Below are positions 8-63,102 of a stretch of DNA of 64,000 nt, in pieces. Every line of letters starts with the position of its first letter. Positions within the stretch are counted from its first letter, which is position 1. The notes under the pieces are model-generated. The model had not been told where the DNA came from. It worked only from the letters and a program-made list of their open reading frames with translations, and made no database searches. The DNA is from Tachypleus tridentatus (Eukaryota > Arthropoda > Merostomata > Xiphosura > Limulidae), in the NCBI RefSeq assembly GCF_004210375.1, contig NC_134834.1:158429290-158493289 (forward strand), read 5' to 3'. Both the position numbers and the translations under genes were made by a program.

Positions 8-3000
8 GTTAGTTTACTTTATTTTTAATGAAATTATTTGTAAAAACTAAAAAATAGAAAATAAATAACATTATTTTGCAGTGATTTTGGTTTGTTTGCA
101 TATTTTTTTATGCACCAAGTATTTTTATTACCATAAGCTTAAAAGGCAAAAAAACAAAAAACACATCCTTTGCTTCAGCTTATGCACATAATTTGTTTCA
201 GTTGTTAGAGGTACATAACATAAAGTGTCTCAGAATAAATTATAATCCTACTAAATTAAAAAAATTTCATAGTGTATTTGTAGCCTTTAGGCTGTAATGT
301 TTTTTAACAGAATCTAAATAAGATGTTCCCTTATATTTTGGAAAACAGGTAAGACAAAAATCTTTCAGTTGAACATCAGTTATGTATATGCAACTCATAA
401 ATTAGTATCAAGCAAAAATTTGTATTGCATATTTTGTTAAGTTATAAATTAATAATGTTATTTTTTGTTCACACTTCACAGGAAATCTTCGGAAGAAATA
501 GTCAAAAAGCGTCAGCGAGCTGTAGAATTAATGGAAAGGAGCAAAAATGAGGTGTGTGTTGTAGAGTTAATAAATTTATCTTTATTTTTTTTATATGTAT
601 TTGTGAATTATTTGTACATGAATTATAATTTTCTAAATTAAACATATTTTGTATGTAAGTGTAAAAATCATTTACTTTCAAGCCATTTGTTACAAAAACA
701 ATTTAACTCTACATTATTCTCATATACAAAACTACACTTTCTTTATAGCCTGGGCTGCTGCACTTCTACATTTCTAAACAGTGGATTAACAAGTTCAACA
801 CCTTTGCAAATCCCGGACCAATCAGCAACTCTAATTTTCTCTGTCCCCATGGAGGTAACAACTAAATTTCAGTTTGAAAGTAGTTTTTTGTTCAAATACT
901 TATTTTAAAAAAGCACAGAAATAAATCACCAAAGTTTCTTATAATTTGTTACTTATAATTAGCAAATAAAACTTACAAAACTTTTTGTCATTCTTATTAC
1001 AGGTGTACATCCAAGCAAAGCTTCTTTTGTGGAAGACCTGTGTACAGTCTTGTCTCAGTCAGTATGGGAATATTTGCATGATACGTAAGTTTAATCAATG
1101 AATATGAAATTATTACTTGCATATATGTAGCATAACTACTTCAACTCCTGAAGGACCATGTGTCCAAGATCGGCCATTTATTAGTGTGTAATATTCAGGC
1201 ATTTGTGTATCATACACTGTATTCACTTTAACTAGTAACTTAACAACCAAGACTATATTATTTTTCAATCCTTGAGTGGAGCAAAGTAAGATTTCTCGAT
1301 ATTCTGAGCACAGCTGATGTTTAATTATTTTTAAAACAATTAATTGTAATCAAAACACGTGCCAGTAGTTTGAGTTTTCTAGTAATATCTTACACATTTC
1401 ATGTTTTGAGAAATACAAATACAACTTAAAGAAAAGTATTTCACTCTTTATATCTGTCTTTACCTAAATTTAACATATTAGTGACTTAACATTGGATCCT
1501 TTAAAGGCACTATCTTTTTTAATTTTAGAACACTGCTTTGTAAAATTACTTTCTTCAGAGCCACATAGAATCACAAATATACAATGAAATACACTCTCTT
1601 TCTTTACTAATTTATCAGATTTTTTATAAATGTAACAAATATTTTAACCCACATTGAATTGCAATCTCTGTCACTGCATCAGTCAGTGTGATTTTGAATG
1701 TATCAGCAATACTTTTTCATTATAATAAGCAGTGATAATGATGAGCATTCCTCTTGCATTAAAGACTATTGTGGTTCATCAGGAATAATGTAAATATAAC
1801 AAGGATCAGACTGCTTTCTTCTAAAAGGATACATACTAGAATTTATTTCTGTTGTTTTATAGTTTTGGTGGGGGACCAGCCTGCACCCATCTGTATGTAT
1901 GTCCTTGTTGTTTAGCAGATCAAGAAAATCTTGACCGCCGACGTACACAGGAACATGACACCTTTGTAACTGTGAGTAAATATATTACTACTGGTCAAGA
2001 GAAGTTTGTTCAAATGTTTCAGTATGCAATTCATTCTTTAAAATAAATCCAGTGTTTCAGTTGTTAAATAAAATTTGGGAAAAACATTTGTCACATGGAA
2101 GATGAATGGGTTTAATGCCCTTCATTTCCATCACATTGTCCCCATCTGGTACAGCAGTAAGTCTATGAATTTACAATGCTAAAATCAGGGGTTCAATGCC
2201 TCTCAGTGGACTCACCAGATAGCCCAATCTGGCTTTGCTATAAGAAAACACACACACTCCATCATGTTAATATAACTAGAAAAAAGGTAATTTTTGCAGT
2301 ATTTTGGAGATTAACTTGAGCAATTGAAAATAATGTGTTTGTAAAATATACAGTGGAGAATGTTGATGAATCTTTTTGTTATGTAGGATTCTATCAACAA
2401 TATACAGTGGTACCATAATCTATTCCAAAAACCGAATTAATTTTTCCCATAAGAAATACTATAAATTAATCCATTACATACCTCCAAAAATTATGCATTA
2501 TGAAGCATTTTAAGTAAAAATATTGCCTATTTATACCTGTATAATAATACTTACATGCATAAAGTCAACCACAAAAACTATAAACACAATAAAAAAACAA
2601 TAAATGAAAATTTAACTGCACTTTACCTGTGCTGAGGAGAGCTGATGGCATAAGTGAAAGGAAGTGAGGCATATGGAGAGTAGGAGGGTTATTATTGTTT
2701 GGAAGGGGAGTCACCTTCCACAAAAACGTCAGTTAACTCTCCTTCTGGGGTTCTTTCTTTTTTTTTTGTCTCTTTGCACTGCTACAACCTGCTTGAGACT
2801 CAGTGGATCTATTTCTCACTAAAAACTTGTCTGATGGGGTTTGTTTCTGCCTGCATTTTAAAATGTTTCTGAAGTAAGACATGGCATTGTCATTGAAAAG
2901 GTTTATGCTGCAGTTTGCTACAGCTTTGTCAGGGTGAAATTTTTCCACAAAACTTTGTAACTCTCCCCATTTTCCACACATTTCGTTGATTAGTGAACTA

Positions 3001-6000
3001 TGAACATCTTCCTCATCTGAAGACACTTCCTCTGTTTCCTTCTGTTGCTGCTCCTTCTGTAGGTCTTGGAGTTCTTCCATGGTGAGCTCAGTGTTGTGGC
3101 CTTCCACCAACTCCTTCACATCATCTCCACTCACATTCAAGCCCATATACTTGCCTAGTGAGACAATACCCTCGACAACAGGCTCAAAGTCTCTATCTGC
3201 TACTGAGTCTGGCCACAATTTCTTCCATGCTAAGTTCATGGTCTTCAAAGACTCTTCCCTCCAGGCTTTGTCTATGATCCTCAAGCAATGGAGGATATTA
3301 AAGTGATTTTTCCAGAACTCTCTGAGGGTTAACTCTGTGTCAGAGGTCACTTCAAAGCACCTTTTAAACAGTGCTTTGGTGTAGAGTTTCTTAAAGTTCG
3401 ATATGACCTACTGGTCCATGGGCTGAATGAGAGGAGTTGTGTTAGGGGGAAGAGCTTCACCGTAATGAAATTGTACTCCTCCACCAACCCGTCCTCCAAG
3501 CCTGATGGGTGAGCAGGTGCATTATCCATTACAATAAGGGCCTTGAGTGGCAACTGTTTTTCCATGAGGTAATTCTTTACACTTGGGGCAAACACTTCAT
3601 GGACCCACTCCATAAAAAATTGCCTGGTTACCCATGCTTTACTATTAGCCCTCCACATAACATTTAGTTTACTTTTCAGGACATTATTTTTTAAAAACCC
3701 TTTGGTTCTCAGAATGGTACACAAGTAAAGGCTTAAGTTTTAAGTCCCCACTTGCATTATTACATAACAATAAAGTTAGCCTGTCCTTCATTGGCTTGTG
3801 TCCTAGCAGTGACTTCTCCTCCTTGGTGATATAGGTCCTCTTTGGCATTTTCTTCCAAAAGAGGCCTGTCTCATCACAGTTGAACACTTGTTGGGGAATA
3901 CAACCCTCAGCTTCTACATAGTCCTTAACTTCCCTAACAAATTTATCAGCAGTGTCTTTGTTATAACTGGCACCCTCCCCATGTCTCACCACACTATGTA
4001 TGCCACTTCTCTTCCTAAATTTTTCAAACCACCCCCCTACTAGCCTTAAAGGCATCACTTGTATCAACACTCATTCCAGGGGTGTTTTTCAGGAGGTCAG
4101 CATGCAGCTGCTTTGCTTTCTCATAAATGATGGTCTCAGAAATGCTATCACCAGCTTACTGTTTTTTGTTTACTCAAATCAACAACAGTTTTTCTACCTC
4201 TTCCATTGTTTGTGATCTTTGTTTCATAAGCACTGTCACTCCTTTTGCAACATCAGCTCCTTTCATGACCTCTTTATTTTTCAGTATGGTGCAGACTGTA
4301 GACTTCGCCGCACCAAACTGTAGAGCAAGGTTAGACATGTGAACACAACACTCATACTTCGCTACGAGATATTTTTTTCACTTCTATTATGGCTCTAACA
4401 ATGTTTCTTTTTGGTTTGCTGCTTTCATTATCCTTCTTTGACCCCATGGTGGCTTATTTAATCAGAATATTTAGAAAAACAAGAACGTTCACAGCAGGTT
4501 TTAGCGGGGGTGTGGATTGAGCGATATATGTGTGGGTAAAATGTTTTGGGCAAGCTTGGCATGGGCTAAAAATGGTCGAAGGGTCATTTCGGTCATCAGT
4601 CGGGTTATTTTGTGTGTTCGGGCCACAATAGCTTGGTTCGGAAACCGAGTTTATATTTGACAACTGACACATTTTTTTCTCAAACAATATGTTCGAGAAG
4701 GGAGTTGTTCGAAAACCGAGGTACCACTGTATTATCAACTTATGCATTGCATACTTTGAGAAAAAACACCTTTATACTTAAACATACTTTTTCTTTGAAA
4801 GTTCTATGAATTACTACAGGTATAGTTCCCAAAAAGTTCATTTTTGAGATTGAACAGATCCAAAGAGAGCATATAGTAGGATAGGAGTTTATTTGTCTAT
4901 CAAGTCCTGACCATGACTGGTAGCAGAGACTGGTTTTACATTTATTACACTTAAACCAGAGCATCAGCTTCCCATCTTTACTGTTCTTGTAGCATAAGTC
5001 ACATGCACATGCAAGCCTATAGAGTACAGGCAATAAATCAGTTATCCCACTTCAAAGATACTTAACCAGTAGAAGAAAAACACGAGTCTTCCTTTGCAGT
5101 GAGTAGGATCCCCAAATCTTTTGCAATTGTTTTGAAAAGCAGTTTTATCCAACAAATAGTGTGCTTAATGTAATATATATGTATTGCATTATGCAGTAAT
5201 GTAATTGATGTTAAACTCATATTGTGAGTTTTGACTATGCAAAAGTCACCAAAATTCATTGGAATTGTGATTTTTCTTTCATTAAAAATATAAAATTAGC
5301 TTCTCACTAAACATGTATTTAAGTTGTTTTTTTTCTTTCTTGAGAATAGCAAAATTAATGACATACAGTAACACTGAAAAAACAAAATCATACAACAAAA
5401 TCTAAAGTAGAAATAAGCATGAGTGATAACAAAAGTTGACACAAACCTAGACAACAGAAACATAAACTTCCAGTGATCATGTTTTGTGTTTATTAGATGT
5501 AGGAAAATTATACAAAAATATTTGACGTGGATCAGTCACGTTAATCAGGTATAGTAAAGAAGTTTAATTTGACTTTGGTAATTTATCTCAGAATGATATG
5601 CAGCATATTTCAGATTTTATATATGCACACATACATACATACACACACACACATTGTATATTTGATAGAATTCTGTCTTTTAACAAGACAGTTTGTCCAG
5701 CTCTTTGTAGCACTGCTTAAATAAAAAATATATAACAGATTAAATGCCTAAAACTGGTAAAGCAATGAAACCAGTAGTTGTAGTAAGAATGACACTATAT
5801 TGCCACTTTGCAAACTTGACAAAATAGCTTAGTAGGAACTTTCTACAAAAGTATAACTAAAACTAAGCTGATTACCAATTAATATTGTCACACATTGTGT
5901 TTATAGCTGAACAAGGAGTTCCAATCTCTAGAATCTCCGACTGTGGTATACGCCATCAGTATGAGTTGGTTTAAACAGTGGGAAAGTTTTGTTCGAGCTA

Positions 6001-26066: not shown

Positions 26067-26298
26067 TCAAATAACCTCACTTTCAATGGCCACACCACCA
26101 CCATCTGAACTTAACACAGGATTTAATAAAGCTTTCTGGTCTGATACTTCAGTTTTCATGTTATCAGGTTGCTCATCACAGACTATTTTGGTCTGTTCAC
26201 CTAATACTGTAGTAGCACCTTCTGGCTTGTTTTCCACAATATTTACTGTTGAGAACATGGCTCGATGGTATGCAGTCAAGAAATTTAACCCGAGAAGC
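26067..26298 (-). CDS. RING-CH gene, last coding exon (n)
   Basis: Acceptor GTGTGCAG. It encodes LLGLNFLTAYHRAMFSTVNI, then an acidic, probably disordered tail ending GGGVAIESEVI and TGA. The first base completes an Arg codon begun in exon m. Confidence 0.88.
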
Positions 26299-29200
26299 CT
26301 GCACACGTATGTAAACAGTTAGAGATTTTGGTTAACCAGTAAAAAAACATACCATAAATACACAAATACGAGTATAATAAATGTATTTACAATGTTATCT
26401 ATGTGCATTTTAACCCATATTTTGCCTGTCAGGACTCAAGTTTGAAAAATTCTGATATAAGAACTTTATCAGTTAGGTTATTCAATGTGGCTTATTAAAA
26501 TGTTAATTTTTAATTTTTAAGCCATTTGTTATATGTTTGTTGTTTAGCACACATCTGTATAACGGGCCATCTGTGCTGTGCCCACCATGAAAATTGACCC
26601 CCATAAATTTAACACTTAGTCACTAAAAGACAAACTATATGCTATCAACCTGGAAGTGAACAAAGTTCTGAGAACCAGGATAAATTTAAACATAAGAAGG
26701 TACTTTGAATATACGTGGAAAAGGGTTAAGCAACTGGTTACAAGTTAAAAATCAGCTCCTCTATTAAAAATATAAACTTAGATTCTAAAATAATTTCTAT
26801 GTTGATACACATAAAGACTAAATGATTCTGCTAAAAAACAGATCAAAGTTACTAAGGAATTTAAGGATATATCAGTCTGAAGAAATTTTTACTAAATTTT
26901 TAAAAGTACAATATACTACAAGTTATTCAAAGCATTATGCTATGTAATCTTTTATAGATCCACAGACCTCAAAGAAACAGAAACTTTATTAAATTTCTCA
27001 GAAAATGTTTTCTGGCAGCAAGTAGCAATTCTTTGATTCATATATAATTAAAAAAACGAGTGAGGTTTTTAATTTTAATAATATAATAACTAACCTCATG
27101 CATACACACTGAACTAACAGTGTTACTCCTACTGTCGCTGTCCGTATGGCAACATTATCAAACATCGTAACCAAAAAATAGGCTCCACCAATAGTACTGC
27201 ACATGCATACGATTATAGCAGATGTCTGTAGCCACTGAGCTTTGGTGAGTCCTGTAGATACCCAGACAGTTCCTGTCTCAAGCTTGTACTGATTAAATTA
27301 AAATTTTTGTAATAACAAACAATAATAATTAGTTTGACTTACAAAAGCTTAGAACAATGACAGTGTCTTAATATACAAAATAAGTTAACTGTATAGAACC
27401 TAACTGAAAACTAATCTCAGAAGAAATTTACAAATGAATATATTATTATATAATACATTATGGATGTCAAACACATTCAAAACAAATAACAAATTTCCAA
27501 ACCTCCATCAGGTTGTTTTGTAATTTTTTGCATTTTAAATTGATAGAAATATGTATCTTCATGAGATTTGGTGTCCTTTTATCCAGTTTATGCAGTTTTT
27601 AAGATGACAGCTGTCCATGATTTCATAACCTAACTCATGAAGTCTAAACCCCGTCACACTATGATTTTACGTGGTGCCAAACAGTGGCATATATAATGTC
27701 AATGTAATGCACCAATGGGTCTCTCATATTTTGGGGCCCCAATATAATGGGAGAGGGAGCATAAATTTCTACACCTATTGCTGATCAGTATGAATGGGCT
27801 TCATAATAAAATTGCACCGAGTTGTTTGAAGTGTTAAAATGCCTCTGGTGTTGAATGCTCACATTATATTTAAACCCTCAGAAAAAGTGATGAGGAGAGA
27901 CGAACGAGAGATATAAAAAAATAACTTATTTAAAATATACTTTTGTAAAACATTAAAGTTTAAAAGCCATATATGATTACTCCTTTCCCAAGATAATATG
28001 CAAAAGTCCCCAAGAGGTATATGAAATGGCAAAGAAGCAGCTCAGTTTGAAAACTGACAATTAGATAAGAAAATGAAAGATACTTCACAGTATTCGAGCC
28101 GATTTGAATTACTTTGCAAAAAGATATGGCAGAAAGATAATAATGAAGTCTAAGGAAGGCCCAACTTTTTAACATAATAGCAACATGTACTCGGGCATGC
28201 CCTTACATGCACTAGCTAAACAGTTTGAAAGCCTACTGTGAGAAAAGAAGGGAGATTCCATAAAGCCAAACTAGGAGCTTTAAATTACATTTACCGAGTC
28301 TTCCATAACAGTTTAAGCTCACATTACAGAGTGCCTTAATTTCTCAAAACTATATACATGTATAGACAACAGCTTGGATTAGTTTGGTATTTTAGGTTGA
28401 CTCAAACAGACAAATATTTAAGACAATGAAAGCACAGAAAATTTGGCCACTATTACAAATAACATTTCTAAATTTAACACCTTGCCATATCCTATACACA
28501 TGTAACATCAATAACACCTCTTAAGAGAAAGGATCACTTAAAGTCATAGCTCTGATATTCATATTTGAGAGAAAAGGCCCTAAGTTATATAAATATACTT
28601 CCATCACAGGAAGCCACTTAAGCAGCAAACCAACAGACAGCTTCCACAGGTTCAGCCACAAGCTCAAATATTTTACTCACAGTACAATTTTTTTTTTATT
28701 ATAGAGTGATGCATAAATAAAAAATATACAAATCCTTTAGAAATTCAATTTATATGTGAATTTAATGAGCCCTATATTATTAACTGAGTGCAAGTATAAA
28801 GTTTAAAATATTCCTAGTCACATTTATCTTCCACACAATGGGAAATAAAAATAATTATTATTGATGAATAACACATATTTTAATGATACCATTCACGTGT
28901 ATCTTAATATAATATGTTATTACAGATAAACATCATACAAATACTTGAATAATTTCTGCTGCATTAGTACAATAAATACAGTATAATATTTATTATCTTT
29001 AACTATGCAATAAGACAGAAAAATATTTACCTCTATTTTACAGACTTTGCATCTTATGTTGTCTGGATTTTCTGATGTCTGAAAATATTTTTTGATTCAA
29101 AATCTTTAAAATGTACATACAGCATTCTGCATTATTTTATAAATCCATACAATAATTTATAGATTTAAAAACAGAAAATTCATACTTAAATAATATTTGA

Positions 29201-32200
29201 TTTTCACTCAAACATTAAAATAATTATGAAAAATGGATAAGAAAAAATCATTGTTACCAAGAAAACTGATACCTGTCTATTGAATAAAATAGTTTGCAAC
29301 AAGTTAACCCTCTCACCACAGATATCCATTTACTGTGCATGATAGAATTCTAGTCTTACATTTAAACCTTTATTATGCTACTTTCTGTTTTATGTATGAA
29401 TTAGTATATCATAAAATTTCTGCTAATAATCCCTATTTTAATAGTATATAAGTTTTAAATTCTTAATTCTATGAGGTAATATAATAAAAAAATCCTGAAT
29501 TTCCCCTATTGTAACACACATGGAACATTTTGTCTCTGCATCTTTTCTATTTTATCCATCACACCATGAACATTAAATGTAAATTACTCACTAAAAATCA
29601 GCATTCTTCAGACAAACTATAAATTTTATATTATAGCCTTTAATTTTGTTTGATTACAAAGCCATGAAATAGAAAATCAGACCTCTCCTTCCACCCTCAC
29701 CCATTATTTTCAACTATTATGTGACATAATGTATAACATTGTTTTCTGAACAGATAATAGCCACTTTCACCATGCTTAATTCTCATGAGAAAGTTAGCAA
29801 CTAGCTTGTATAAATTTGCAACAGTTCTTGTCACATAATTAGAAAGCAGAAAAAAATTTGAGTCAGAAAGAATTATTAGTTGTCAGTCTATCTTCTTAGG
29901 TACATTGTTTAATTAAATAAAATTTATTTAGCGCATTACTACCATTAGTATGAAAAAAAGTAGGGTAAAATGTGTTTGACAATTAACAGAAGTAACAATG
30001 AGGATTGGGTATGTATTTTATTTCCTGTTGTTCATGTTTATTCTTTACTTACTATTATAAATGTAACTAAAATGTAAAAATAGGGATCTTTGTAGGTTAG
30101 CTAACAGCAATTATGTAAAATAAATAATGATAAAAATGTTTTTGAGGCACAAGTCGCACATGTGCACATGCCCTGCATGATTTACAACTCACAATAGTGC
30201 AGATAGCAGTTCGACACAGTTCAAAGGGCAATCAAACAATAACTTTTAGTTATAAATAGATATATAGCTTAAAGTTACTTAGGATAAACAAATATAGTTT
30301 CATATTACAATCTGAAGACATTATAGAAGGAATAAAAGGGTAATTTGTATTTGTTTTGTATTTACTTACAAGGTCAGTCGTATTTACCAACCTTGTACAG
30401 GGTTAGGGTAGAGAAAATAATGGATGAAATATAACGTTTTACTGAAAACAAACATACAAAATTTATTTAAGGGTTTTTATAGAGATTATGCAAATGAAAC
30501 TGGAGATTTTTGAAATGAAGAAAAGTATTTTTGACTTTAACATGAAAATCACTTTGCACAGGAACTAGTCAAAACAAGTACTTGATATATTGATAGAAAT
30601 ATCTTTTTCTATGTTTATTTAAATTTCTTTCTTTTCTTGTTTTTGGTGGTTACAAGATTGAGGAGATTTACAATTCCCATTTAGAGTTAGGTTAGAGAAA
30701 TTAACCCATGAACTATTAAGTTTTATTGAATAAAAACAAACAAAAATGTTAGAAATGTATTTAGGAGGTGTTAAGGATTTTACAACACAAAGGATATTTG
30801 AGATGAGGAAAAGTATTTTGAATCTTAACGTGAAAATTACTTTTGACACAGACTATTCACAACAAATACTTGATATATTCATGGACAAATCTTTATTTTA
30901 ATGTATTAAAGATATTTCACTAAAATAGGTATTTTCTGTATAAGAAAGAATTACAATGTCAACTGAAAGACTATCAAATTTTGTGAAGATATACACACTG
31001 TATTGAAAGTTAGAAGTATTAAATCTATAGAGACTAAGTAAGTACAAAGAGATCACATGGTTGGTCAGACTCACTGAGATCATGTTGAGAGAGTTAAAGC
31101 ACAAAGCATTCTGCTAAAACTTCATCTCAAATTCACATTTTATCTCCAAAAAAACATAAAATTTACTAATTAAGATAGTATTAATGAACATTACTATTAC
31201 TTGAACAAGCCATTTTCTTAAACAATCATGATGAACTACAGACATATCCCCTTTACACAGACATGGCTGAATCAGAGGCCCTACATCCTGTCTCTCAGAA
31301 TCATAACAGATCCAACATTCAGGTAGATTCTCCAGTGTCAGATCTAAGTACAACAACAAAAATACAGTATAAGAAATATGTATTTATGAAAAATTTGCTT
31401 CAACAATAATTAAACTGTAATAAAATTTTTAAAATTTAATGTCTAACTTTTAGGAATAACTTACTTGCCAAACAACCTAGTTTCCTGCTCTGACATTAAA
31501 AGTTACACTTTAATGGTGTAACTTCGTAAAATACTTTTTTATATTTAGTGTATAGAAATATATTAATTCTAATATATCGTGCCATTTGTTAAAGCATAAC
31601 ACAGAAATAAAAAATTAAAACATTAAAAATGTAAAATATCTTTCTTGAACATCCCATTCAGTAAGAGGTATAAAGGTATAACATAAGATTTAGGCAGAGT
31701 GCACATAATAATAAATAAATAAAAAAAAAAATTGTAAAATGGGAAGCAACTGTTTAGTTGAGAGTGATATTCGTAAAGGAAATACTGGAAGACTATTATA
31801 CAAAAGTAGCCTAGATTGAAAGTGTGACATTTCAAAGGCCTTCCATCTTTGGTCTTCTAGTCAACTTGCACTGATTTTTAAACACTCGCTATGCCATCAC
31901 CTAGCTGCTTTTTTTGTCATTTAAAGGGCACTTAACATTTATGATTTAAACTATTTCAACCATCACATGATATTAGTAGCATTTTTTTTTTTTTTATGAG
32001 AGTGCTGTGTTTACTTTAGTAAGGCAACAGCAGTATTTAAGAAATGCAGTGTAGAATGTATTTAACTAATATTATCTCACATCAAATAGTTTCTTCATAA
32101 TCAGTTAAGAGTCCCTAGACATAATTAGAATCAAATCAATGACAGTTACGAATACTTGAAAATAAGGTGAAGGTTTAATATAAGTTTTTTCTTTCACTCA

Positions 32201-35200
32201 GACTCTATATCTACTGTTCTTGAGACAGTTTTGGGGTCATGTATTTTTTTTTCTTTGATGACCATGACTTAACAGATACTGAAAACATTGTAAACAAAAA
32301 AAAAAAAAAACTCCACAAGTGCATTTTCAGCTATCAGAAACTCACAAAGAAACACTAATAAATTCCCTGATCACAGTTTTACAAAAAATGAAAATATTTC
32401 TTTATGAGAGACTGGGATTGTTAAAAAAACAGATTACTACTTAAACAAAAAAATTAACACATCCTATACTTATACAAAGTCTAAACGTGTAGGCTTTAAC
32501 AACTTAAATACACAGTATTTTGTGACCTTGAAAATTTGGATTAACAGTTACCACATATTGTGCTCTGTTCAGTGGCATATCCATGGTCTCTCTATCAAGA
32601 TCACTTGAATACATTTTAATATTGATAAAGTGTTGGATATGAGCAATAATAAATATTTTACAGTTACTGAACACTTACTTCATCTGGGAATATTACATAA
32701 TACATTCTCTCTAACATTTTTTAGACATAATCCTAAGAATACAACAGAAAATAACAGTATCTTAAACAGATGAAGTAATTAACTATGCACTGGTTACATT
32801 TTGCTATGCTGTATAAACTTCTGCCTAAACTTTATACAATTTACTATTGCAGACAGATCTCATAACCATGTTTTCATATAAAATTCTCATGAAAATCACC
32901 TTACACTCAAATTATTAAGAGTTTGAATGCAAATAATTACAACAAATGAGATAGTTTCAGTAGAAATACTTAATTAAAATAATGTCATTCTCTGTACTTA
33001 CAATGTTTAACAAACTCTTACTAGTTTTTGTGATGAAACAGTAAGAAATCTCACAATTACAGTATTGTTGGTCAAGTGAAAATCTCATACCCCCCAGCAA
33101 ATTGCAGACATCTGTACCAAATGGACTAAAGGTTTTGTAGAAATATGCTCAAAAGCAACCCATAAGTTGCAATCCCACTTTTATGTCAGTAAAGAAGTAA
33201 CTAACCTTTTACCATCTCCACCTACACATTTACACCAAATATGGTAAAGGTAAAAAACCCTTCCATGGATGGTAAGAGGTAACATAAAAAAAAAAAGAGT
33301 GTCAGAGGAAATGTTTATTCCATTATTTTTCAATGTAAGACCACTTTTTTCAGCTCACCCGTTCTGAGTACCACTTCTTTAGACACGAGGGCAACTCACC
33401 CGTTCTGAGTACCACTTCTTTAGACACCAGGACAACTCACCCGTTCTGAGTACCACTTCTTTGAGTACCACTTCTTTAGACACCAGGACAACTCACCCGT
33501 TCTGAGTACCACTTCTTTAGACACCAGGGCAACTCACCCGTTCTGAGTACCACTTCTTTGAACACCAGGGCAACTCACCCGTTCTGAGTACCACTTCTTT
33601 GACACCAGGGCAACTCACCCGGGCAACTCACCCGTTCTGAGTACCACTTCTTTAGACACGAGGGCAACTCACCCGTTCTGAGTACCACTTCTTTAGACAC
33701 GAGGGCAACTCACCCGTTCTGAGTACCACTTCTTTAGACACCAGGGCAACTCACCCGTTCTGAGTACCACTTCTTTAGACACCAGGGCAACTCACCCGTT
33801 CTGAGTACCACTTCTTTAGACACCAGGGCAACTCACCCGTTCTGAGTACCACTTCTTTAGATGAAGACACCAAGGCTTCTTCTTCAGTTGACAAAATATG
33901 TTTGTCCTGCTCTAGTCTCTTTAAAATCTTTTTTGGATTCAAAATCCACAGCTGCTCTGGACTGTGAATGAAGAAAAAACTTACTCTTCAATTAGCAAAT
34001 CCTTGCCCCACTATATTTGAAAATATTTAACTTAAAAACAAATTAATCAAACAAAGGTTTGTCAACAATTCTCTTAAAATAGTAATTTCATCTGAAAAAA
34101 CTATACAACTAGTTCATGTCAAATATATAAAATAAGAGTTCTGTTTTGATATAAATGTTAGAACAATATTTCAAAATGATAAACTAGTTCAGTTCATCAA
34201 AATAATAATCTGTTGTTTGTTCAGTTGCAAAGACTTCTCAAAATATTTGTTCATAGAACCATTTCCAAAGAAAGCTAAAAGCACATTATAAATTCTTTTA
34301 CTGTGTTGTATATTTTCCCCATCTAATATCAATACAATTTAGATAGTGTAATATATTCTGCTTAAGCCCAGATTACTGTTGAATATGAAATTTTGTTAAG
34401 TATGATGTATTATACTACTTTTAAATCTCTCAGTTATTTACCAACTTGCATCAGAAGTTTTGCATCATGTTCTTTCTCAACTTCAACTTATTATATCATC
34501 ACATGCATCATATGTTTGACATTGTTTAGTCATATCTATATAATAAGACTCAAGATGGGTAAGTGTATGTATGTTGCATAACTCTTAATAAACTGCTGGT
34601 CACATTGACTTCTAAGTGGTACCAAATGAATTGTTTGGTACTAAGGTTTGCTCAAAGATAAACTTTTCACTCCACCCCTTGGGGAACCAAGTGATTTCTA
34701 AAAGTACCTTTCTTTTAAACTGCTGGACTTACCACCTTTTAAATATGCCAAATGGATCATCTCAGTCTCAAGGCCTGCACAAAGTTTAATATTTTTCACT
34801 TGACTCCTTAGGGAACCCGGGTTTATCACAAAAACACTTTTATAGGGATTCCCCAAAACAAAACCCAAATTTGGCATATATTTGCATTTTAGCACATAAA
34901 TAAGTAGGCTTACTAATTACTATTTGTAGCTTGGTTAAAGAAACTGAGTTTGCATTATAGCAGCAATGATCATTAAACAAAAAAGTGCAAAACTATAAGT
35001 TAAGTATTAAATTTGCATTATAGTGGCCCTCAAAATGTAGGCTATAGACCCACAGGTTCACTAAAGACATAACTTGATGTTTTCAAAACTGTTAATTATT
35101 ACTTACCTAATACAGTTCCACAAGACACAAGGAAACCACAAAGCCACTCCCAATTCCACAATTCGAAACATCACATCGTGACAGTTACGACTCAAGACAG

Positions 35201-38200
35201 GGACCCTATTTTGATTTATCAAAAAATAATTAAATGTATATCTTAATTAATCTTGTCTGTAAAAAAATAATATTTATACAAGAAAAATTCAGTATAGTAT
35301 ATTTTTATATAAGCTTTAATAATCTTCTTTAAGTTTAATCTTGAAATTACTTACTTATCTCTCCAAGAACTTCCAAAGGTATCGGAGATGATAAAAGCTA
35401 CAGTGATGAGAAGTAATAATCCTTGAGAAACAAGTCCTAGTCTGGATTGATGAAGCTGAGAAGTATTTATAGTTGTTGTGGAATTCTGGATGAACCCTCC
35501 TTGAAGCTGTAACAAAAAATTATGATGATTTACTTTTTAAAATTGTTTTTTGCAATTATTTTCATTAATTATCTTCAGAAATTCAAATGGTTAATCCAAT
35601 GAAAAGTACTATATTTCAGATTTTATGAAATTATCTTTAATCACCCAAAAAATGTTTCACAGTTTTTAATTCTTTGAGTTGAGTAGAAAGGTTTCCAATA
35701 TTTACATCTCCATAACCATCACTACTCCTTAAAAACAAGCTGCATTTATTGTTTATATACTTCCATACACTGAATGTGTGTATGGAAAATTCAATAATAA
35801 CAAGACATTAATAACCAAGGAAACATATGGAGGTTGTAAAAGTGGAAATATTGTCAAAATATATAATGACAAATTTTATTGTATAATAGAAATAAATCAT
35901 TATGCTGTCATTTTTAAGATTGCCCCTGGAAACCAGACATTATTCTTCATTCTGTTTTAGCAACCAAGTAAACAATAGAAACTAAGGAACTAGCATTTAT
36001 TAATATCAAGACTGAGAAACTTAAAACAGTACAACATAACAATAAGCACCATATGTCACAAAACCAGAGGTACAAAGCAAACTTTGACCTTTCTTGAAAT
36101 TCATAAAATATATAAAAACCTTGTTTATCCTAAGTTCATTATAATCATCTTTAGTATTATTTGCTGCATCTCCTAATTTCTCTTCATTAGAGCTTAAATA
36201 TGCCTTGGAATACAAAACCAATAAACAATAGGAACTTATTTCATAAATAATTCTTGTATTAATTTAAATATTTTTTTGCAGAACAGAGAAACAAATAGAT
36301 TATTTATCTACATAATTAGTATTAGTATTTAGTATTAAAAAACACTAAAGTCAGAGTTTTCATTGTTATATTCAGCTCTGGTGACACAAAGAAAATTCAA
36401 TATAAATGTGTTTTGTTCTGTTTTTAATTATTGACCTAAGTTTATGTATTTTGAATCTTCTATCTTTAAAGGTAAGTTGTCACTTCTCACTACCCACTTT
36501 AGAATCCCTAATTTTTAACAACATAAAAAATAATTTATATCCTACCTTAAAGTACATAAGTGTTCCATAAACAAGAAAAAAAATTAGTACGATGAGCATA
36601 AGAGCAGCATAGAGTCCATTGAACACACTGGTAAAGAAATTCTGCAATAAAAAACTTAACATTATTGCAACTGATATATATATGCTTAGTTAGACTAACA
36701 TTTTACAGTAATACCTTACCTAATCTAAAAATGAGCAGTGTTTTAATGTTTAACAAAGATATGGATTTCAGTTGTGCAGAATTAATGGGAAACCCTTTTA
36801 ATGTGTGTTTTATTATGTAAAGAATATATCATAACTTTAGATTTTAGCATTCTTTTTCACTTTGATTACCCACCTCAAATAAATTAACTTTAACACAGTT
36901 TTGATGTGGCAATGTCAAATTCAGTTTCTTCATTATTTCTTCTACCTCCTAACTGAAACAAAGTAAATTCAGTATAAACTAATAACAATGTGAAAATGTT
37001 AGATATTACCTTTTCATTATTACTTCTGTTTCCCAGCTGGAGTAAAAGCAGTTCAGCGAGAAGTAATGAATATGTAATTATGTTAAAGGCCAGAAAACCA
37101 AAAAATGATTTGTCAAGGAAAGAAGATTTATCCAGAGTTTTGTCTTGCAAGTGGAATATCTGTACATGAGAAAGAAAAAAGACAATTTTAATAATGATTT
37201 CGTTCATAAGTTATGTTTATATCAGATAATAGTTGTTTTTATCAATGTATTTGCAAATTTATTAAAACAAGGAAACAAACATATATCCACTTTACACTAT
37301 TTATAATTATGCAACAAATGATTCTACATTGTTCAGAATCTCATAAAAGATAGTTACAATAACTTGATTTCAAAGAGTTGCCAGTGGACCAAATGATACA
37401 AGAGCTATTAACATGCCTTTCAAACACAGCAGCATGTATCAAACACACATATATTTGCTTTACCATAAAATAAATTATTAAAAATTATTTAATTGGTTGA
37501 AAAAATTAATTTTAATCATTAAATTATTTTCAGAGGAAATAACTGAATACTCCACAAGAAAAATTTAGTACCAAGTAATGAAAACTGATTTGGTTAGCAC
37601 ATATACTTAGATACATACCATCAGCAAACATAAATAAATATTTTTTTATTTAAATAATTTAAGAAATTCATGATATGACATAACCCATCGATTATTTATA
37701 ACTAAAATTGCATGAGAGAGAAGTCAAACTAAAACAGTTTTTAAAATAATGTTCCAAGAGACAGAATAAAAAGTATTATGGTGTAGGTGTAACTTGGTTC
37801 TTGGATGGAGAGAACGCATTTCCTTCATAACATCTGTATGCTTATCACAATTTATGTACTGCACTTCACTTTTCTTAAACAAAGTACAAAGCATTTCAAA
37901 CAAAGCCCGAAATACAAATGAGTTTAAAGTTTTCCTGTTTACTATGTTTTACTTACCTCTGCCCAAAAACAGACAATGAGAGAGGAACCTGTAAGGAGAA
38001 GTGGATAATAAGCACTTAATAAACTAGATGTCCATTGAAGTGTTGCATTCTCCTGTGAAAGAAAGAAAAAGGTGTTAAATATTTAACTTCGTACCTGAAA
38101 ATGCATTTACAATATATAATCACCTCTTTACTCAGAACAGCTTGATCTTTTGAGCACCTATCAATGAGATCTGCATGCAAATAGCCTTAAACTAATTTAC

Positions 38201-41200
38201 ACCTAAAAATCATGTTTAACATGAATTGCACTAGTATGTGATGACACCATCATGCAACAACACCTTTCCATCAATAGAAAGGATACACAAGCTCCTTGTG
38301 CAGCAACTCACCTTACATACTTCCACTTAGAATAACTTTTCATAGACAAAGACAGAAAAAAAATGCACTAAGTGGGGAGGATGAGTAGAAAGGTGTAAAG
38401 AGGTGAGAATGTATCCGAAATATATTTCCAGGTAAGGAAAATGTCAACTATTGAGACAATATCTCCCTTCCACGTGTAGAATAGCTAGAATCCCACACAA
38501 AAATGGTAATGGGACTGGTATAACCATTCAACCTAGAGGAGTTCCCTTCTAAAAGCACCCAAAAGGAAAACCCATAGGATTTGACATCCAACGGCAATGA
38601 CACTTCATATGGACACACCTTTGGAATACCACATCTTGTCTCCACCAAGGTATACTATAGTCTTTGACCAGAAGGAAACTGAGGGAAAGGAAAAAGAGCC
38701 CACAAGCATTGCAGGGATGGATAGAATTTGATCATCATTGATCTATCACTCACACACATGGTAAGCCAAGAGGCATAGTGTACTTAGGCCAGTCAGACTG
38801 TGTAGTATCTCATACTGACTCAACTAGACACTTGCTGCAGAAGTAGATCCCGTTAACTGACTGAAAGGTGACCCACACTACAAAGACAGTGCAACAACCA
38901 CCCTACTTCCCATCGATGCTTGCTGTAGAGTATCAGTAAGGAACCCTCCAAAATTGAACACCCCAGTGGTTAGAAACTGATAAGTGACAAGGGTCTCTAT
39001 AATGATTCACTTGATCAGGAGAGAAAGAGAATTCATTGTGGGAAAACCCAGAAAAGTGCCTGGATCCCCTTTTAACACCTACCAGAAAAGTCTTTTACTA
39101 GAAACAGTGCTATGAGTAAGAGTAAAACTATTTTTTAAAACAAGCAGATGCAAACCAAAAAAGTGGGCAAACTATTCCCTGGTGCTGACTTTTTCCATGA
39201 TTTTCCACAGAGTGGTATGGTCTGGATCAGACAATTGAGTAAATTTCAATAGCAAATGGATTCCTCCAGTGGCCTTGCAAAATACCTCAACTTAACAGTA
39301 GGCACAGGTAGAGCCAGGACAAATGGGTTGATTGCTTTCTGTTACCTCTGGCCTGATGTGGATTTTTGGAAATAAGCATACTCTAGAAGAATACACCAGC
39401 CACCTAGCAAGATCCTATAAAAGAGAAAAGTGCTGAAAAAAATAAAGTACTTACCCTTCTCAAAGATGGTAACCAGTTTTACTGAAGAACAGAGCCTAGA
39501 AGGAGTTGATATCCCACAGAAAAGAAAACAACCTTCCCAAGCAGCCAGACTTAGGAAGAAAGGCATAGTTGCAAGTAGTAAAGCAGAGGAGAAATCAAAA
39601 GACAAAAGGGAAAGAGAAAGAACATACCTGAAAAATCATGTCAAATGAGAGATGAAAAGAGTGAGGAGTTTCCTCCATAAATAAAGGTGTGATTAGAGAA
39701 AAATCAGGGTAGATCCTGTCAAAATCATCACCATCCTAATCAAACTGCAGAGAAAGAACATCAGCTGAATGAAGAGGAAGAGGAGGCCATATGCACAAAA
39801 GAACCCACATGTTGAACAATGATGGTTATGATGTCCTTTACAAACAACGAGCACTCCAGTAGCTGCAAAAGTCACAGGCCCAGTGTTAGAAACATCATCA
39901 CTAACAGACAAGCAGAAACTACACCATCATTTGAAAATTCATAATGGGCAAGGAAGAAAAAAAGATTATCTTGTTCAGTTATGAAAGAAATCAATGAATC
40001 TTAAATGAAAGTTTTGTTTCATAACTTATTGCAAATCTGAATTGATTAATAATACTAAAAATATGTCCATTTTAAACAATGCTGAGAAAATAAATAACGT
40101 TATTTTGACCACAAGTGCAAGAATATTGTGTCATCCACCTAATGGTGAAACTCTGCTACTGCATTATGATATCTAGCACAGTTCACGTTAAATGTGCTTT
40201 TGAGGTGAACATTAGCCATCACACATGAAGGATCGAGCTTTTCTGTGTGTAAAGTATCACATCAGAATTACCATTTTCTCTTCATCTATTAAAAAGAAAA
40301 AAAAAAGATCTTTGTTTACAAGTTTGACTGACAGCTTATTTGCTATAATAATTTATTGTTGTTGCTATCTGAGTATAAACTGTTACATTGTAAACCAATG
40401 CAAGATTACTTTACTGGATCTAATAGCATTCTTTAGTAATTTTTTTCTTATAAAAGTGAATCAGCATCCATATTCAGTACATATGTCAACAAGAAGTATT
40501 GTTATTCTCTGGGTTTTATGAAAGGAAATTTGTTTCTAAACAAAACTAACTGCTAAATCATTTTTTCTCAAACAATTAGGATGTCATGGTAATTACAATA
40601 TTACTTAACTAATTCTAGTTTCTGTGAAAGAATCACTATTTTCAGATAATTAATAATAATAATCAAGATAAATCATTCAAATACATGACAGAAGATTTAT
40701 GTTTTCATGTGTCTTACCAGTGGATGAGCTTAGCATCCAGCAGAAGTTAAACCATTCAAAACAATAAAATATATAGCTTCACACCATATATAGGTTTGTC
40801 ATCCTCACAGTTTTGTACAAAATGCAAATAACTGACCTTCTTTTACCCATGTCAGCTTATATCTGAATCATACATAACAGAAGCTGTTTTATTTGTTAGT
40901 AGTTAATCACAAAGTTACACAGTGTGCTAACAGTTGTATTAAACAAATCACCTTTACATCTCTTAAAATAACACAAACCCTTTTTTGTGAAAAAACATTA
41001 CAGTAAAAAAGCTGATGTTTATTATGATAAAAACCTAACAAATACTTTATAACTACTTACTGGGGATGAGAACCAAGATCCTCTGATAGATGTAGCAATA
41101 CAGATTAAAATATACAGTGCCTTCTGTGTTGTGATTCTACACGCTTTTAACACAGATGGAGATTTTCTTCTTCGGTATTCTGATTTCACACAGAGCAGCT

Positions 41201-44200
41201 AAAAAGAAATCCAGAATGTAGCAAATATGATTATAAACCTAACAAAAACAGAAGGAAGAGAACATCCAGATTGGATTACGTGTAAATTTATGAGAGGTGG
41301 TGCAACATACAGCATACATAAAATTTGTAAGAAACAGAATTTTGGTAGCTAAATAGAAACAAATTTTCCAAACAATGTTGGTGCAGTTGTTGAGAAAAAT
41401 AAATTAATGTAATATTGTGACATAACTATCAACAAAGTTGATGCATTCACGTGTACAGCAAATGTAGAATATTCTCAACTGTATGTATGTATAGCAGAAA
41501 AACTGACTGAAAAATATGCTTTTAAACTAAATCCTTAATATACTCACCAGCTGTATGAAAGATACAACACTTATGATGTAAAATACACTGGAAAATGTAA
41601 TGAAGTATCCAAGGTTTGGATCAGTGCAACTTCCCCCACTGTACTGCACCTAGAAAATAACTGTCTTTTTATAGCTAATATAAGAAAATACTTTATTTTC
41701 ACTCAAAATACATATTAAATTTTTGCAACAAATTACTTAACTTTCAAACTATATGAAAATGAAAATCTCCTCATTTTTAAATATCATAGAACTACTTACT
41801 TATCAAATGTGTACAGGGTTTGTCCATTTACTTAGTGTATCTACATGAAATGTATTAATTATTTAGTAGTATGTACAAGTGAAGTTTATTATAAACAAAA
41901 AATAAGATATGTTACAAAAGTATCTGTGTGCAAGACATGTTGGTGAACCCATGAACTCAATCTGACTGAGACACTAACATGTCAAAGTTCAAGGTAATAT
42001 TTGTTTAAATAGTAAATATAATTTTATGGATCATGCAGGTTGCATAACCTCTAGAATCTTCAAAATGTACATCTACATTTTTTTAAAGTATCACTGTATA
42101 TTGTATTTGTTATTTACCTTTCTATACAATGAACTGTCTCTAAGACAGCAATGTAAGGTAAAATGAATAGTTGATAACCTACATCAAATACATAATACCA
42201 TGTTGAATGGCACTTGACAGAAGATAGTGACAAGTGCAATTTGACCCCTACCCATCACATGCAAAGTTAAGCAGGAAAACAAAAGAAATAAAAAATAATA
42301 ATTAATTACAAAAAAACAAAGTCAATTTCTGACAAATCAACTCACTAATTTGTTAGTACATATACCACAAAACTACTTATTCATATTCTTTTAAATTTAA
42401 TTTTCTGCACATTTTCTTTCAAAAGGGAATTCATAAATAATATTAATTTGTTTGAAAATTAAAAGAAAACTGCTTAACACTTTTGAAAAAATATTAAAAA
42501 AAAGTATTTATTACTGGATAAAACCACAACATAATCCAAGAACTTTTTCTAAACAATAGGAAAATGTATATTTTGTGTTTAAACATGGATTTATTAATTA
42601 AATAAAGCAAAACTTAAAAATAGAATAATATGCCATAAGCTTAACCAAAAAAAAAAAAAAATCAGAAACTAAATCATTAAAAATAAACATAAAGGTAAAA
42701 CATAAAAATTATTCTGAACATATAGCAGAACAGTAACTGCAATGTTTTTCTTTTGACAAAAAAGTCTCCTTAATTCATTAGTAATACAGAAAGCGAATTT
42801 TTTATTTTCACAATACCAAACATCATCATCCCATAAGTCTTTTATTCTACATAAAGAACAATAAATGTTAACACCAGGATTCTTAAAAAATAAGATGGAG
42901 TATTTATTTCAACTTTCACATGCAAAACAAAATATACTCACAATACAATAATTACAGGTTAAAACAACATATTTTAACAACAAAGAACTTCTAAGTAATA
43001 TAATTCTGACACAAAACTTCTAATTCAGCAACATAACCTTGGCACAGCTTCAATAATATAACCTTAACTTTGAAAATTAATCACAAATCTCCATTTGATA
43101 ATACACTTACAAACTCTGTAATTAAATATAGCTCATAACAGTTCTAATCAAGTTCCAAGCAATATCCAATCTATTCTCTAGATTCTCAAGCATCTGGCAT
43201 ATGACTTCAGTTCTACTCAACTTTCTACTTCATTTGCTACAATAAGATACAATTACAATTCCATATAATACAGTTACTGGCTATTACCAAAACCTCAATT
43301 CCACCCAGTGTCTGTCATTTTGCCTCATAATCCTTCGATAGATTATGCCCCAGAAATAATTTTGTTACAAATTTTGAGAATATTGTAAATATTGCTTAAA
43401 ACAACCAAAAGTGTTAAGAGTTTAATACAAACATACATACACACACACACAAATGAAACTTTATACCTCACAAAAACAAACTCCTTCATAGCAATCACCA
43501 TGTCCTGAACAATTGTTCACACATTTGTCTTCCATCAAATCCAAAAGTGTCAGTCTATTTAAAGGAGAAAGTTGAGTGACCATGCTAGGAGGTGGATCAT
43601 CAAAGTCCAACATACTTGATATCTCTAGATGAAACCACATGCAAGAGCATAAGTTCAGAAATGGGTCTCAGTAGTATTCTATGAAAAGAAATTAATAAAC
43701 ATGAATGTTTTTTATAAAAATTCTAAACCTACAAATATTTTTCACAAAACTTTTCTCTATAATTGTTACAATATGCATATGGATAACCTCTTGAATAGTT
43801 GCAAACAATAATTCTTAAGAACTAATTCATAATACAGCATTATCTTTCAGATATAACAACAACAAAAAATATTATAAATAGTTTCTTAACTAGAAATAAT
43901 ATAATAATTAGCACCATGATGAGAAAATAGTTTATCATAAACCCATGCCATAAGATCTGACAAGTGAGTATTAAGTAACCTAACAGCAGATATCCATATC
44001 ATTAAAGAAAATGTTTCTCATTCTCCAATTGATTCACAACATATTTCTGAAGAAATTACTCCTTTCCAAACATGTACTAATTAGCAGATTTCCTGAACCT
44101 GATTTACCTGCTTTTTTAAATTCTACATTTTTAGTATCATACTTAAGTATGTCATCAAAATTTACTAATAATACTAAAATGTTAGTTAAAGCTAAAATAA

Positions 44201-60777: not shown

Positions 60778-63102
60778 GTTTCAAAATATTCTAAAGTTGT
60801 GCAGATTATTTTCATTTATGTAATGATAATAAATTATATATTTGATAATGTTTACTACAGGGTACATTCAAGTTTACACAAGTTGAAAGCCTAACTTAAC
60901 AAACATTTCAACTGAACCTCCTCCTTAATAGTGCCTATATCTAGCTTACTTGGCTTTAATCAATAAATGAATAAACATGTAACCAACTGACTACCTTAAT
61001 AAAAGAAGAGATGCAATAACTTCCACTGTCTAACACTGAACTGACAAGCACAATGCTTAATTTTCTTACTCATTACTTCTATTTATAAAGTATCCTTGTG
61101 TCTAGACATTCTATAAAGATAACTGGTCCTAACCATTCATACACATTCTTCATCACAATGGTTAGCAGTGCTCTCTAGCAAAAGAACATGTTCATTAAAA
61201 TATTAAAAATACAGATATGCAGCATTATATTTTGTAACTTAAATGAATTTATATTATTAAACTCAAGGCATTTGTAGAATCCTTAAAAAATACAGAAGCA
61301 ATTTATAATTTCAATTCTAATCTTCTTGAGATGAGGTTATAACTACTATTTAAAATCTGAATTGCCTTAAACAGTATGAATTTTTTTAAAATAAACTAAT
61401 GAGATTCAATAAAACTGATTTTAAGAATTGAGGTTTCATAATATAATTAGCTCTATCAAAATAAACCAATATAAAGGAATGCCTTTATACCTATATTAAA
61501 TATAATAAAATAAATAATATAAAATTATATATTCAAACATCTAACACCACCCTCTACATTCCGACACTCAGTTACATAACCCCTTCCAAACATGTGGTTA
61601 GCTTCCGGTCAGTTACCTCTTTCTTTCTTTGTAAACCTGACGATGGCTGAAGAAGGTTGAAACGTTGTTCGCTCTTCTACGTAAAATATTTTCTCAATGA
61701 GCCTTTTTTGCATATATAATTATGACTATGGTAAGGAAAAATGGTATAAAAGGCAAAATGCTTTGTAAAGTAATACAAAAAATTGATAACTTATATCAAA
61801 TGCATGATACTAACTTGAATAGCATTTCATACAAGATATAGGCATGAACACTTTGCCCCTACTTTTGCACAGTGAATTAAAGTCCCACAATAATAAAGGC
61901 TTTAAAGTACAATGTGATAATTTATTGATGATCAGGATCTTTTAAAGTAAGCACAAATGAATTATGTCTAACTATATATATATATCTCAAATAACTGAAA
62001 CAATAAATTTATTATATATATGTATGGATATAGTAAATTTGTTATTTCAATTCTCTGAGAATTTTTATATTTACTTTCAACCAAAAATTGAGACACAAAA
62101 ATGGTATAAATTCTAAAAATAATTTCTACAAAGTTGATTAATATGTTTCATTCTGACCACAACTTTTTCTTTCTTTTTTTTTTCCTTTAAATTATCAGAA
62201 AAGAAGTTAAAATCCAGAAACAAAGAATATTAACACTTAAACCTTTTCAGTGCTCTCAGTAAGTGCTGCAATGTGCTGGTTTACTTCAAATATTCTACTC
62301 ATTTGGAAATTTTGTCTTTCTTGGTAAGCATCAGTTGAATACTCCTGAAATTTGTAAAAAGAGAGAAATAATAATAATTTAAATCTAATAATCCATATTA
62401 ATACAAGATAGACCTAAAAAGTAAAGGTATTTTTATATGTTCTTTAAATTAGATATTCACAAATAAATATGTATGTATCAACTGTAGCCACAACCTACAT
62501 CAACTACACTGTATAACTCACTGAATAGTCAAAATACACTTTAAAATGCTAAATCTGTAGCATGTCTAGGTGAACGATAAAGAAAGGAAAAAACGTTTCT
62601 GCTTCAATACTTCCTTCTCTACTAGTAATAGTATATGAAGTAAGACTAAATAGAAACACCAAACCAGATTTAAATGTAAAACTTGAGGGAAAACAAACAC
62701 CTACTTCATTACAGTATTTCAGAATTTCTAGTTTACACAATTTACCAAGGTATTAACTTTGACTTCTGTTTTGATTCGAAAAAATGTAATAAACTAATGT
62801 ATATAAATTGTTTTTAATGTTTACTTCTCCTGAAATTATATATTTGTATTATTTATTTATGTGGAATGACAAAGAATATTGAGGCAAGAAAAAATTCAAC
62901 AGTTTAAGATGTTGAAAGTTAAAGAAAAAAAAGGGGTTAACTCAATACTAACAAAGTTTGCACTGCTAGTTTGACTGAAATATGGCATTTTCTTCATGAC
63001 ACACTCGATTTCCTGCTGGTACCAGTCTCGTGCTCGTTCAATAGCTTCCAAACCCTGGTACAATACATCTCGTTCCTGCTCCAACTGTTTCATTCGTTTT
63101 AA
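60120..63102 (-). CDS. Sapcd2: SAPCD2-like (suppressor APC domain-containing) protein, 3' part
   Basis: Four exons (62953-63102, 62243-62344, 60421-60540, 60120-60242), all in phase 0, encode 164 residues and a TGA. RMKQLEQERDVLYQGLEAIE, RARDWYQQEIECV, LKEQNKMLTQEVSKRSEHIT and RLEREKSSLIRELFQAK match the C-terminal coiled-coil parts of vertebrate SAPCD2, in the same order, and the end (DYTAFI) resembles the vertebrate DSTFI. In vertebrates SAPCD2 is a cortical regulator of spindle orientation and planar division. The N-terminal suppressor-APC domain should be upstream, beyond position 64000 or in the last kilobase where I see no exon. Confidence 0.85.
60421..60540 (-). CDS. Sapcd2: SAPCD2-like gene exon
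   Basis: Acceptor TTAAATTTAG, donor GTAGCA. A poorly conserved linker (EIPLHMHVALCQPATFRRMQ) is followed by TIQKLKEQNKMLTQ, the start of the C-terminal coiled coil. Confidence 0.87.
60744..60777. repeat. (TA)n microsatellite in a SAPCD2-like intron
   Basis: An uninterrupted AT/TA dinucleotide run after TACATACA. Confidence 0.9.
61632..61675 (-). repeat. short element fragment (AACGTTGTTC type)
   Basis: ACCTGACGATGGCTGAAG and AAGGTTGAAACGTTGTTCG follow the middle block of the 112-bp element at 15555, in the orientation of the 50575 copy. It lies in a SAPCD2-like intron. Confidence 0.55.
61740..61870 (+). repeat. unclassified dispersed repeat, copy 3
   Basis: GATAACTTATATCAAATGCA, GATACTAACTTGAATAGCA and TTTGCCCCTACTTTTGCAC follow copies at 42115 and 12780 at lower similarity. 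Confidence 0.45.
62243..62344 (-). CDS. Sapcd2: SAPCD2-like gene exon
   Basis: Acceptor ACAAATTTCAG, donor GTTTAA (weak at positions 5-6). It encodes EYSTDAYQERQNFQMSRIFE and VNQHIAALTESTEK. EVNQ-x-I-x-x-L fits the EVNRCLGDL segment of the vertebrate protein. Confidence 0.82.
62953..63102 (-). CDS. Sapcd2: SAPCD2-like gene exon, first one in the window
   Basis: Acceptor ATTAATAG, donor GTTAGT. It encodes LKRMKQLEQERDVLYQGLEA, IERARDWYQQEIECVMKKMP and YFSQTSSANF. RDWYxQQ is highly characteristic of SAPCD proteins. Confidence 0.9.

Follow-up and report, generated by a model that had tools for sequence, protein, structure and literature searches.

A minisatellite repeats the 5' splice site of one exon in a RING-CH gene of the horseshoe crab Tachypleus tridentatus, and similar ladders occur at other exon-intron junctions

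In the human gene IFI6 (6-16, G1P3), a minisatellite with a 12-bp unit begins in a coding exon and extends into the intron; its copy number is polymorphic, and its later donors keep the frame and yield longer proteins. Turri et al. are reported to have described this minisatellite with multiple splice donors in Nucleic Acids Res 23:1854, in 1995. Two downstream repeat units are described as acting as donor sites, giving three mRNA species (PMC4526556). Among the matches listed in our searches of the literature on splicing and minisatellites and on horseshoe crabs, IFI6 was the sole true precedent; the accessible parts of PMC12783039 and PMC2883569, which we also considered, do not describe a case of this kind. 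Minisatellites of variable copy number also lie inside the hTERT gene, within introns, and the accessible part of that report makes no mention of an exon's own splice site (PMC2915984). In intron 4 of DOK7, two 5' splice sites 11 nt apart, said to be well conserved in mammals, compete with each other; one product is frame-shifted, and the intron-proximal site is preferred (PMC5585400).

Here we describe an array of 5' splice sites at exon j of a gene in Tachypleus tridentatus. The window is the whole stretch of 64,000 nucleotides that was analyzed, and copies of the gene on other chromosome-sized contigs are named by their contig (C1, C2, C3 and C6). Fourteen exons, a to n, were assembled by eye and then checked by script; all 13 introns between the found exons have GT-AG ends and the frame is open through to the stop. 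The RING-variant domain by which RING-CH (MARCH-like) genes are recognized is present in the product (PF12906, 49.8 bits, Pfam cut-off 21.6), as is a THH1/TOM1/TOM3 domain (PF06454, 29.3 bits, Pfam cut-off 25). To our knowledge, the latter match is an extra feature and not one that defines MARCH genes. The EGF-like region of the product matches EGF_TEN under the Pfam cut-off; taken with this sub-threshold stretch, the product has an uncommon domain set of EGF-like, THH1/TOM1/TOM3, and RING-CH parts. Elsewhere in the window there is a transposase-like run of open frames at 2733-4377 (minus strand), which we take to be of the pogo/Tigger type, and a Suppressor_APC match of 69.2 bits in an exon at 62896-63102 (minus strand). 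The features of the gene and its array, in window positions, are these:

26067..43624, minus strand: host gene, 14 exons (a to n) found by GT-AG exon assembly in one frame
31201..31343, minus strand: exon k with the RING-CH finger (PF12906), from exon assembly and domain match
33837..33961, minus strand: exon j, 125 nt, ending at donor 1, from exon assembly; the C6 and C3 paralogues agree in length and phase
33829..33875, minus strand: putative ancestral seed, the last 39 nt of exon j and the first 8 nt of the intron, from comparison of the exon end with the units
33351..33828, minus strand: derived array of 11 further copies (478 nt in all), its units 41 bp long except for one of 53 bp and one of 56 bp
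33831..33836, minus strand: donor 1, productive, GTGAGT
33790..33795, minus strand: donor 2, adds 41 nt, exon k then starts ATC TGA
33749..33754, minus strand: donor 3, adds 82 nt, TAA within the repeat
33708..33713, minus strand: donor 4
33667..33672, minus strand: donor 5
33626..33631, minus strand: donor 6
33613..33618, minus strand: extra donor CCCGG/GTGAGT in the 53-bp unit, leads to TAA
33573..33578, minus strand: donor 7
33532..33537, minus strand: donor 8
33491..33496, minus strand: donor 9
33435..33440, minus strand: donor 10, after the 56-bp unit
33394..33399, minus strand: donor 11
33353..33358, minus strand: donor 12, GTGAGC, then probably original intron

All 12 copies carry an identical core, AAAGAAGTGGTACTCAGAACGGGTGAG (minus strand), so that the donor array which a preliminary description placed after exon j is real; the invariance it noted also stands, over 27 nt and not the 26 it gave. 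On its minus strand the window contains the sequence CGGGTGAGT 12 times, always within the array, and on its plus strand not once, which excludes a chance origin. Eleven donors read AACGG/GTGAGT (GT at 33836, 33795, 33754, 33713, 33672, 33631, 33578, 33537, 33496, 33440, and 33399). The twelfth (GT at 33358) is AACGG/GTGAGC, so the twelve are not all equal, and a thirteenth donor-like site, CCCGG/GTGAGT at 33618, is a partial copy within the 53-bp unit; what had been counted as about twelve identical donors is thus eleven, with one variant and one extra site. Units follow each other at 41 bp apart from the two of other length, and single changes set some of them apart. G+C content is 51% in the array versus 32% in the window. 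When the array was searched against the 2.17-Gb assembly, by a method that skips very common words, only the window itself was found.

Like the IFI6 minisatellite, this one offers several splice donors and runs in tandem from a coding exon into the intron, with the exon end here fixed by paralogues and a donor in 12 of 12 units (11 GTGAGT, 1 GTGAGC). In contrast, its unit is 41 bp long and not 12 bp, the 11 later donors all give a stop where those of IFI6 stay in frame, the gene is unrelated, and within one genome the pattern affects several exons and two genes. Because the anatomy is shared and the in-frame feature is not, we regard the exon j array as a variant of the IFI6 arrangement, not as the same thing. 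With the hTERT repeats it has in common a minisatellite inside a gene, perhaps also one of variable copy number, and with DOK7 competing 5' splice sites of which a product is frame-shifted; unlike the conserved pair in DOK7, there are twelve near-identical sites here, spread over 478 nt and confined to a single copy of the gene.

When donor 1 is used, exon j reads into exon k in an open frame, whereas all 11 later donors lead to a stop before the RING-CH domain: exon k starts ATC TGA when spliced from donor 2, donors 3 to 12 run into a TAA inside the array, and the extra site at 33618 likewise meets the array's TAA. This frame check confirms what had been claimed of donor 2 and of donors 3 to 12, and with it that donor 1 is the sole productive one; the RING-CH finger is indeed encoded just downstream, exon k being the next exon after the array. 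Stop codons with further exons downstream expose an RNA to nonsense decay. Since exons l, m, and n lie downstream, RNAs spliced from the late donors should be targets of this pathway.

The repeats can be traced to the junction itself. The 41-bp unit comprises 33 nt of exon, CCTTGGTGTC and TAAAGAAGTGGTACTCAGAACGG with TTCATC lost between them, and 8 nt of intron, GTGAGYTG; its exon share is the last 39 nt of exon j minus 6 nt. The unit had been described as the last 24 bp of exon j plus the donor: the exon end and the donor are there, and the 24-bp extent is too short, the whole unit being derived from the junction. Exon j and the C6 paralogue exon both contain TCTTCATCTAAAGAAG where the array units read TCTAAAGAAG; since TTCATC is present in both, it is the array units that carry a 6-nt deletion. 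We propose that a 47-bp tandem duplication arose at the junction of exon j and its intron, was probably trimmed by 6 bp, and would then have been amplified to 12 copies, giving a minisatellite with a 5' splice site in each unit. The new copies all lie on the intron side, so the coding exon and its own donor are intact. For the tail AAAAAAGTGGT after donor 12 we prefer an origin as original intron sequence; given its resemblance to AAAGAAGTGGT, it is possibly a decayed thirteenth unit. We also asked how long a change-free run is expected on a 41-nt circle, with the position of the core chosen post hoc; a run of 27 nt has a P of 0.14, 0.06, or 0.02 for 4, 5, or 6 independent changes, of which 5 or 6 were counted by eye. 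The unchanged core in 12 of 12 copies is thus a weak hint of constraint or gene conversion.

When the exon j peptide was searched against the same genome, seven places matched: the window, two with good scores (C6, 73% identity, E 1e-10; C3, 66%, E 2e-10), and another four that are weak (E between 0.1 and 9). Fuller gene copies surround the C6 and C3 places as well as weak places on C2 and C1 (one of two there). In the C6 and C3 paralogues, exon j is also 125 nt long and in the same phase, with a single donor each (CAG/GTTGGT and CAG/GTGAGT, respectively), from which it follows that exon j ends at donor 1, as had been proposed. Neither of these two close paralogues has an array at exon j, indicating that the array arose in the window copy after the gene copies parted. 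Similarly, in the C1, C2a, and C2b copies the last 12 nt of exon j are not repeated within 1.5 kb downstream; no tandem array with a unit of at least 12 bp was found in 30 kb around the C6 copy, and none above a score of 55 around the C1 copy. The conservation between relatives that would mark a poison exon is therefore absent in this comparison of exon j with its C6 and C3 paralogues. Over 404 codons from 9 of the 14 exons, dN/dS of the window gene is 0.18 versus C6 and 0.17 versus C3, at dS of 0.93 and 1.15; for exon j alone it is 0.22 versus C6, dS being saturated versus C3. Judged by these ratios, the host gene is under purifying selection relative to both, although the array may be younger than most of the period they cover. 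For horseshoe crabs, three rounds of genome duplication are reported (PMC7815833), and gene copies on five chromosome-sized contigs would fit them.

Arrays of the same kind appear at other junctions. In the C2 gene copy, exon m has the 194 nt that it has in the window, and after it come 23 donors in a 62-bp unit (L015:1633-3057, minus strand); about 250 kb away, a second C2 segment has the exon m ladder in 6 units, with 5 of the donors exact (L055:7792-8164, minus strand). The two segments, C2a and C2b, are near-identical (about 97% in stretches 4 to 6 kb long), and the ladder nevertheless differs between them, 23 versus 6 units. Reading past the first donor of the C2 exon m ladder meets AGG TAA immediately, and stops also follow from the second donor in the C2a ladder and, in the C2b ladder, from the 4 later exact donors. 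Within the 30 kb covered, the 23-unit copy showed no exon further upstream than j, and the gene there may be partial. Other arrays differ between the C2 segments too (C2:144542001-144824970), a 36-bp unit with 122 versus 53 copies and a 34-bp unit with 37 versus 145. In the C3 paralogue, it is the acceptor of exon n that is present three times, through a 45-46-bp minisatellite (L012:2972-3107) whose extra acceptor copies sit on the intron side. The C6 and C1 gene regions showed no ladder.

An unrelated gene shows the same arrangement. When the whole genome was searched for three consecutive GGTGAGT, the place listed first was an L-type calcium-channel exon (Ion_trans, 31 bits, cut-off 25; best solved chain Cav1.3, E 1.3e-16) that ends in FIKSIQ and is followed by 14 GGTGAGT over 1.1 kb, changed copies among them, in 43-bp and related units (L025:1379-2650). 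Donors two and three of this ladder shift the frame, and donors four to six meet a stop. Taken together, the exon m donors, the exon n acceptor, and this unrelated gene suggest that such mutation is a habit of this genome.

Genome-wide counts lean the same way: triple GGTGAGT gave 9204 matches versus 4700 in the reversed control, the triple-donor pattern CAGGTGAGT 263 versus 97, and AGGTAAGT 3409 versus 1419, where matches overlap within arrays and are not independent arrays, so that the ratios can serve as a pointer but not as a test. Judging by the reversed controls, tandem arrays containing any word of this sort are common in this genome. Apart from the first, the GGTGAGT matches listed are all members of a single 32-bp repeat family; this family has GGTGAGT in every unit and lies at C1:6388030-6389582 and from C1:6610294 onwards. 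Among the CAGGTGAGT matches listed, we distinguished at least 14 array families by eye; the one of these 14 that was looked at, in the calcium-channel gene, is a donor ladder. In the C3 and C2 paralogue regions, 2 of 11 arrays (TRF score above 150, period at least 20) span a coding junction versus 0.28 expected, a rough and post hoc comparison on few arrays with a P of 0.03. The C6 and C1 regions have no such arrays; the C2a and C2b versions were counted once, and the window's own array was excluded since it had prompted the search.

We consider it likely that the exon j array is a by-product of recurrent junction-spanning minisatellites, at what would be mild or no cost, with donor 1 mostly used and no conserved regulatory role. 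Donor 1 would probably be chosen in most transcripts because it defines the normal 125-nt exon (exon definition). A 2010 paper by Hicks et al. is said to concern, by its title, competing upstream donors. Some transcripts may use later donors, meet a stop codon, and be lost to nonsense decay; junction minisatellites would be tolerated because the original splice site still works. RNA structure was rejected as a cause of donor choice, since the array folds no better than its shuffles (z 0.33; 60 of 100 shuffles as good or better) and the costs of opening the donors overlap: 3.4-8.1 for the 12 array donors, 1.6-7.0 for the 12 other donors of the gene, and 2.8 and 8.6 for the paralogue donors. By analogy, a preference for the intron-proximal site as in DOK7 (PMC5585400) would speak against this reading, favoring the late, nonproductive donors here.

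The preliminary description had proposed that copy number could tune how much transcript goes to nonsense decay; allele length would then set the share of nonproductive, destroyed transcripts and with it the dose of RING-CH protein. Stops from all 11 later donors and the extra site, those met in the C2a and C2b ladders, and the wide difference between 23 and 6 units speak for such tuning; still, a frame-shifting extension into any intron tends to meet stops. The array is missing from exon j in both close paralogues and in the three more distant copies, special RNA structure is lacking (z 0.33), and the invariance of the core reaches P <0.05 only with at least 6 independent changes. The ladders at the exon m donor, the exon n acceptor, and the calcium-channel exon speak for mutational habit. 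Tuning of this gene by copy number is, on this evidence, rather unlikely. We give a similarly low probability to the idea that downstream U1 sites help to define exon j or back up donor 1, offsetting a weakened donor. The -2 base does differ (CGG/GTGAGT in the window, CAG/GTGAGT and CAG/GTTGGT in the paralogues), and the window donor scores 6.0 where the gene's 12 other donors span 5.7 to 13.3, on a tiny matrix built from those 12 with no published standard behind it; moreover, engineered U1 at downstream cryptic donors is reported to raise SMN2 exon inclusion (PMC11289892). A backup donor here, however, would yield stop-bearing RNA only, and the weaker -2 base, present in every copy, may simply predate the array.

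If late donors were instead the most used, as the intron-proximal preference in DOK7 might lead one to expect (PMC5585400), this gene copy would have partly lost its function and be tolerated since paralogues remain, at least two of which are fairly complete. This seems quite improbable: late donors would give exons of up to 603 nt, against 48-232 nt for the other exons of the gene, and the 14 found exons are intact. An assembly artefact is very improbable. The assembly has one array copy and no second haplotype was found in it, but single changes distinguish some units, two units differ in length, the assembly consists of 205 contigs for 2.17 Gb, and similar ladders stand at other places in the genome. 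A wider proposal goes beyond the by-product reading: this genome might seed junction-spanning duplications above chance and amplify them on the intron side into ladders of donors, and of at least one acceptor, at many genes, where fast-changing copy number would be a heritable dial on the share lost to nonsense decay. We hold this to be unlikely, though worth stating.

Ladders of 6 to 23 near-identical donors with a single productive one are a natural experiment on the choice among equal 5' splice sites, a choice usually studied with two-donor minigenes. Because the pattern returns at exon m, at the exon n acceptor, and in the calcium-channel gene, there is a small set of such experiments that differ in copy number. 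This recurrence also suggests that exon-intron junctions may be favored birthplaces of minisatellites in this lineage.
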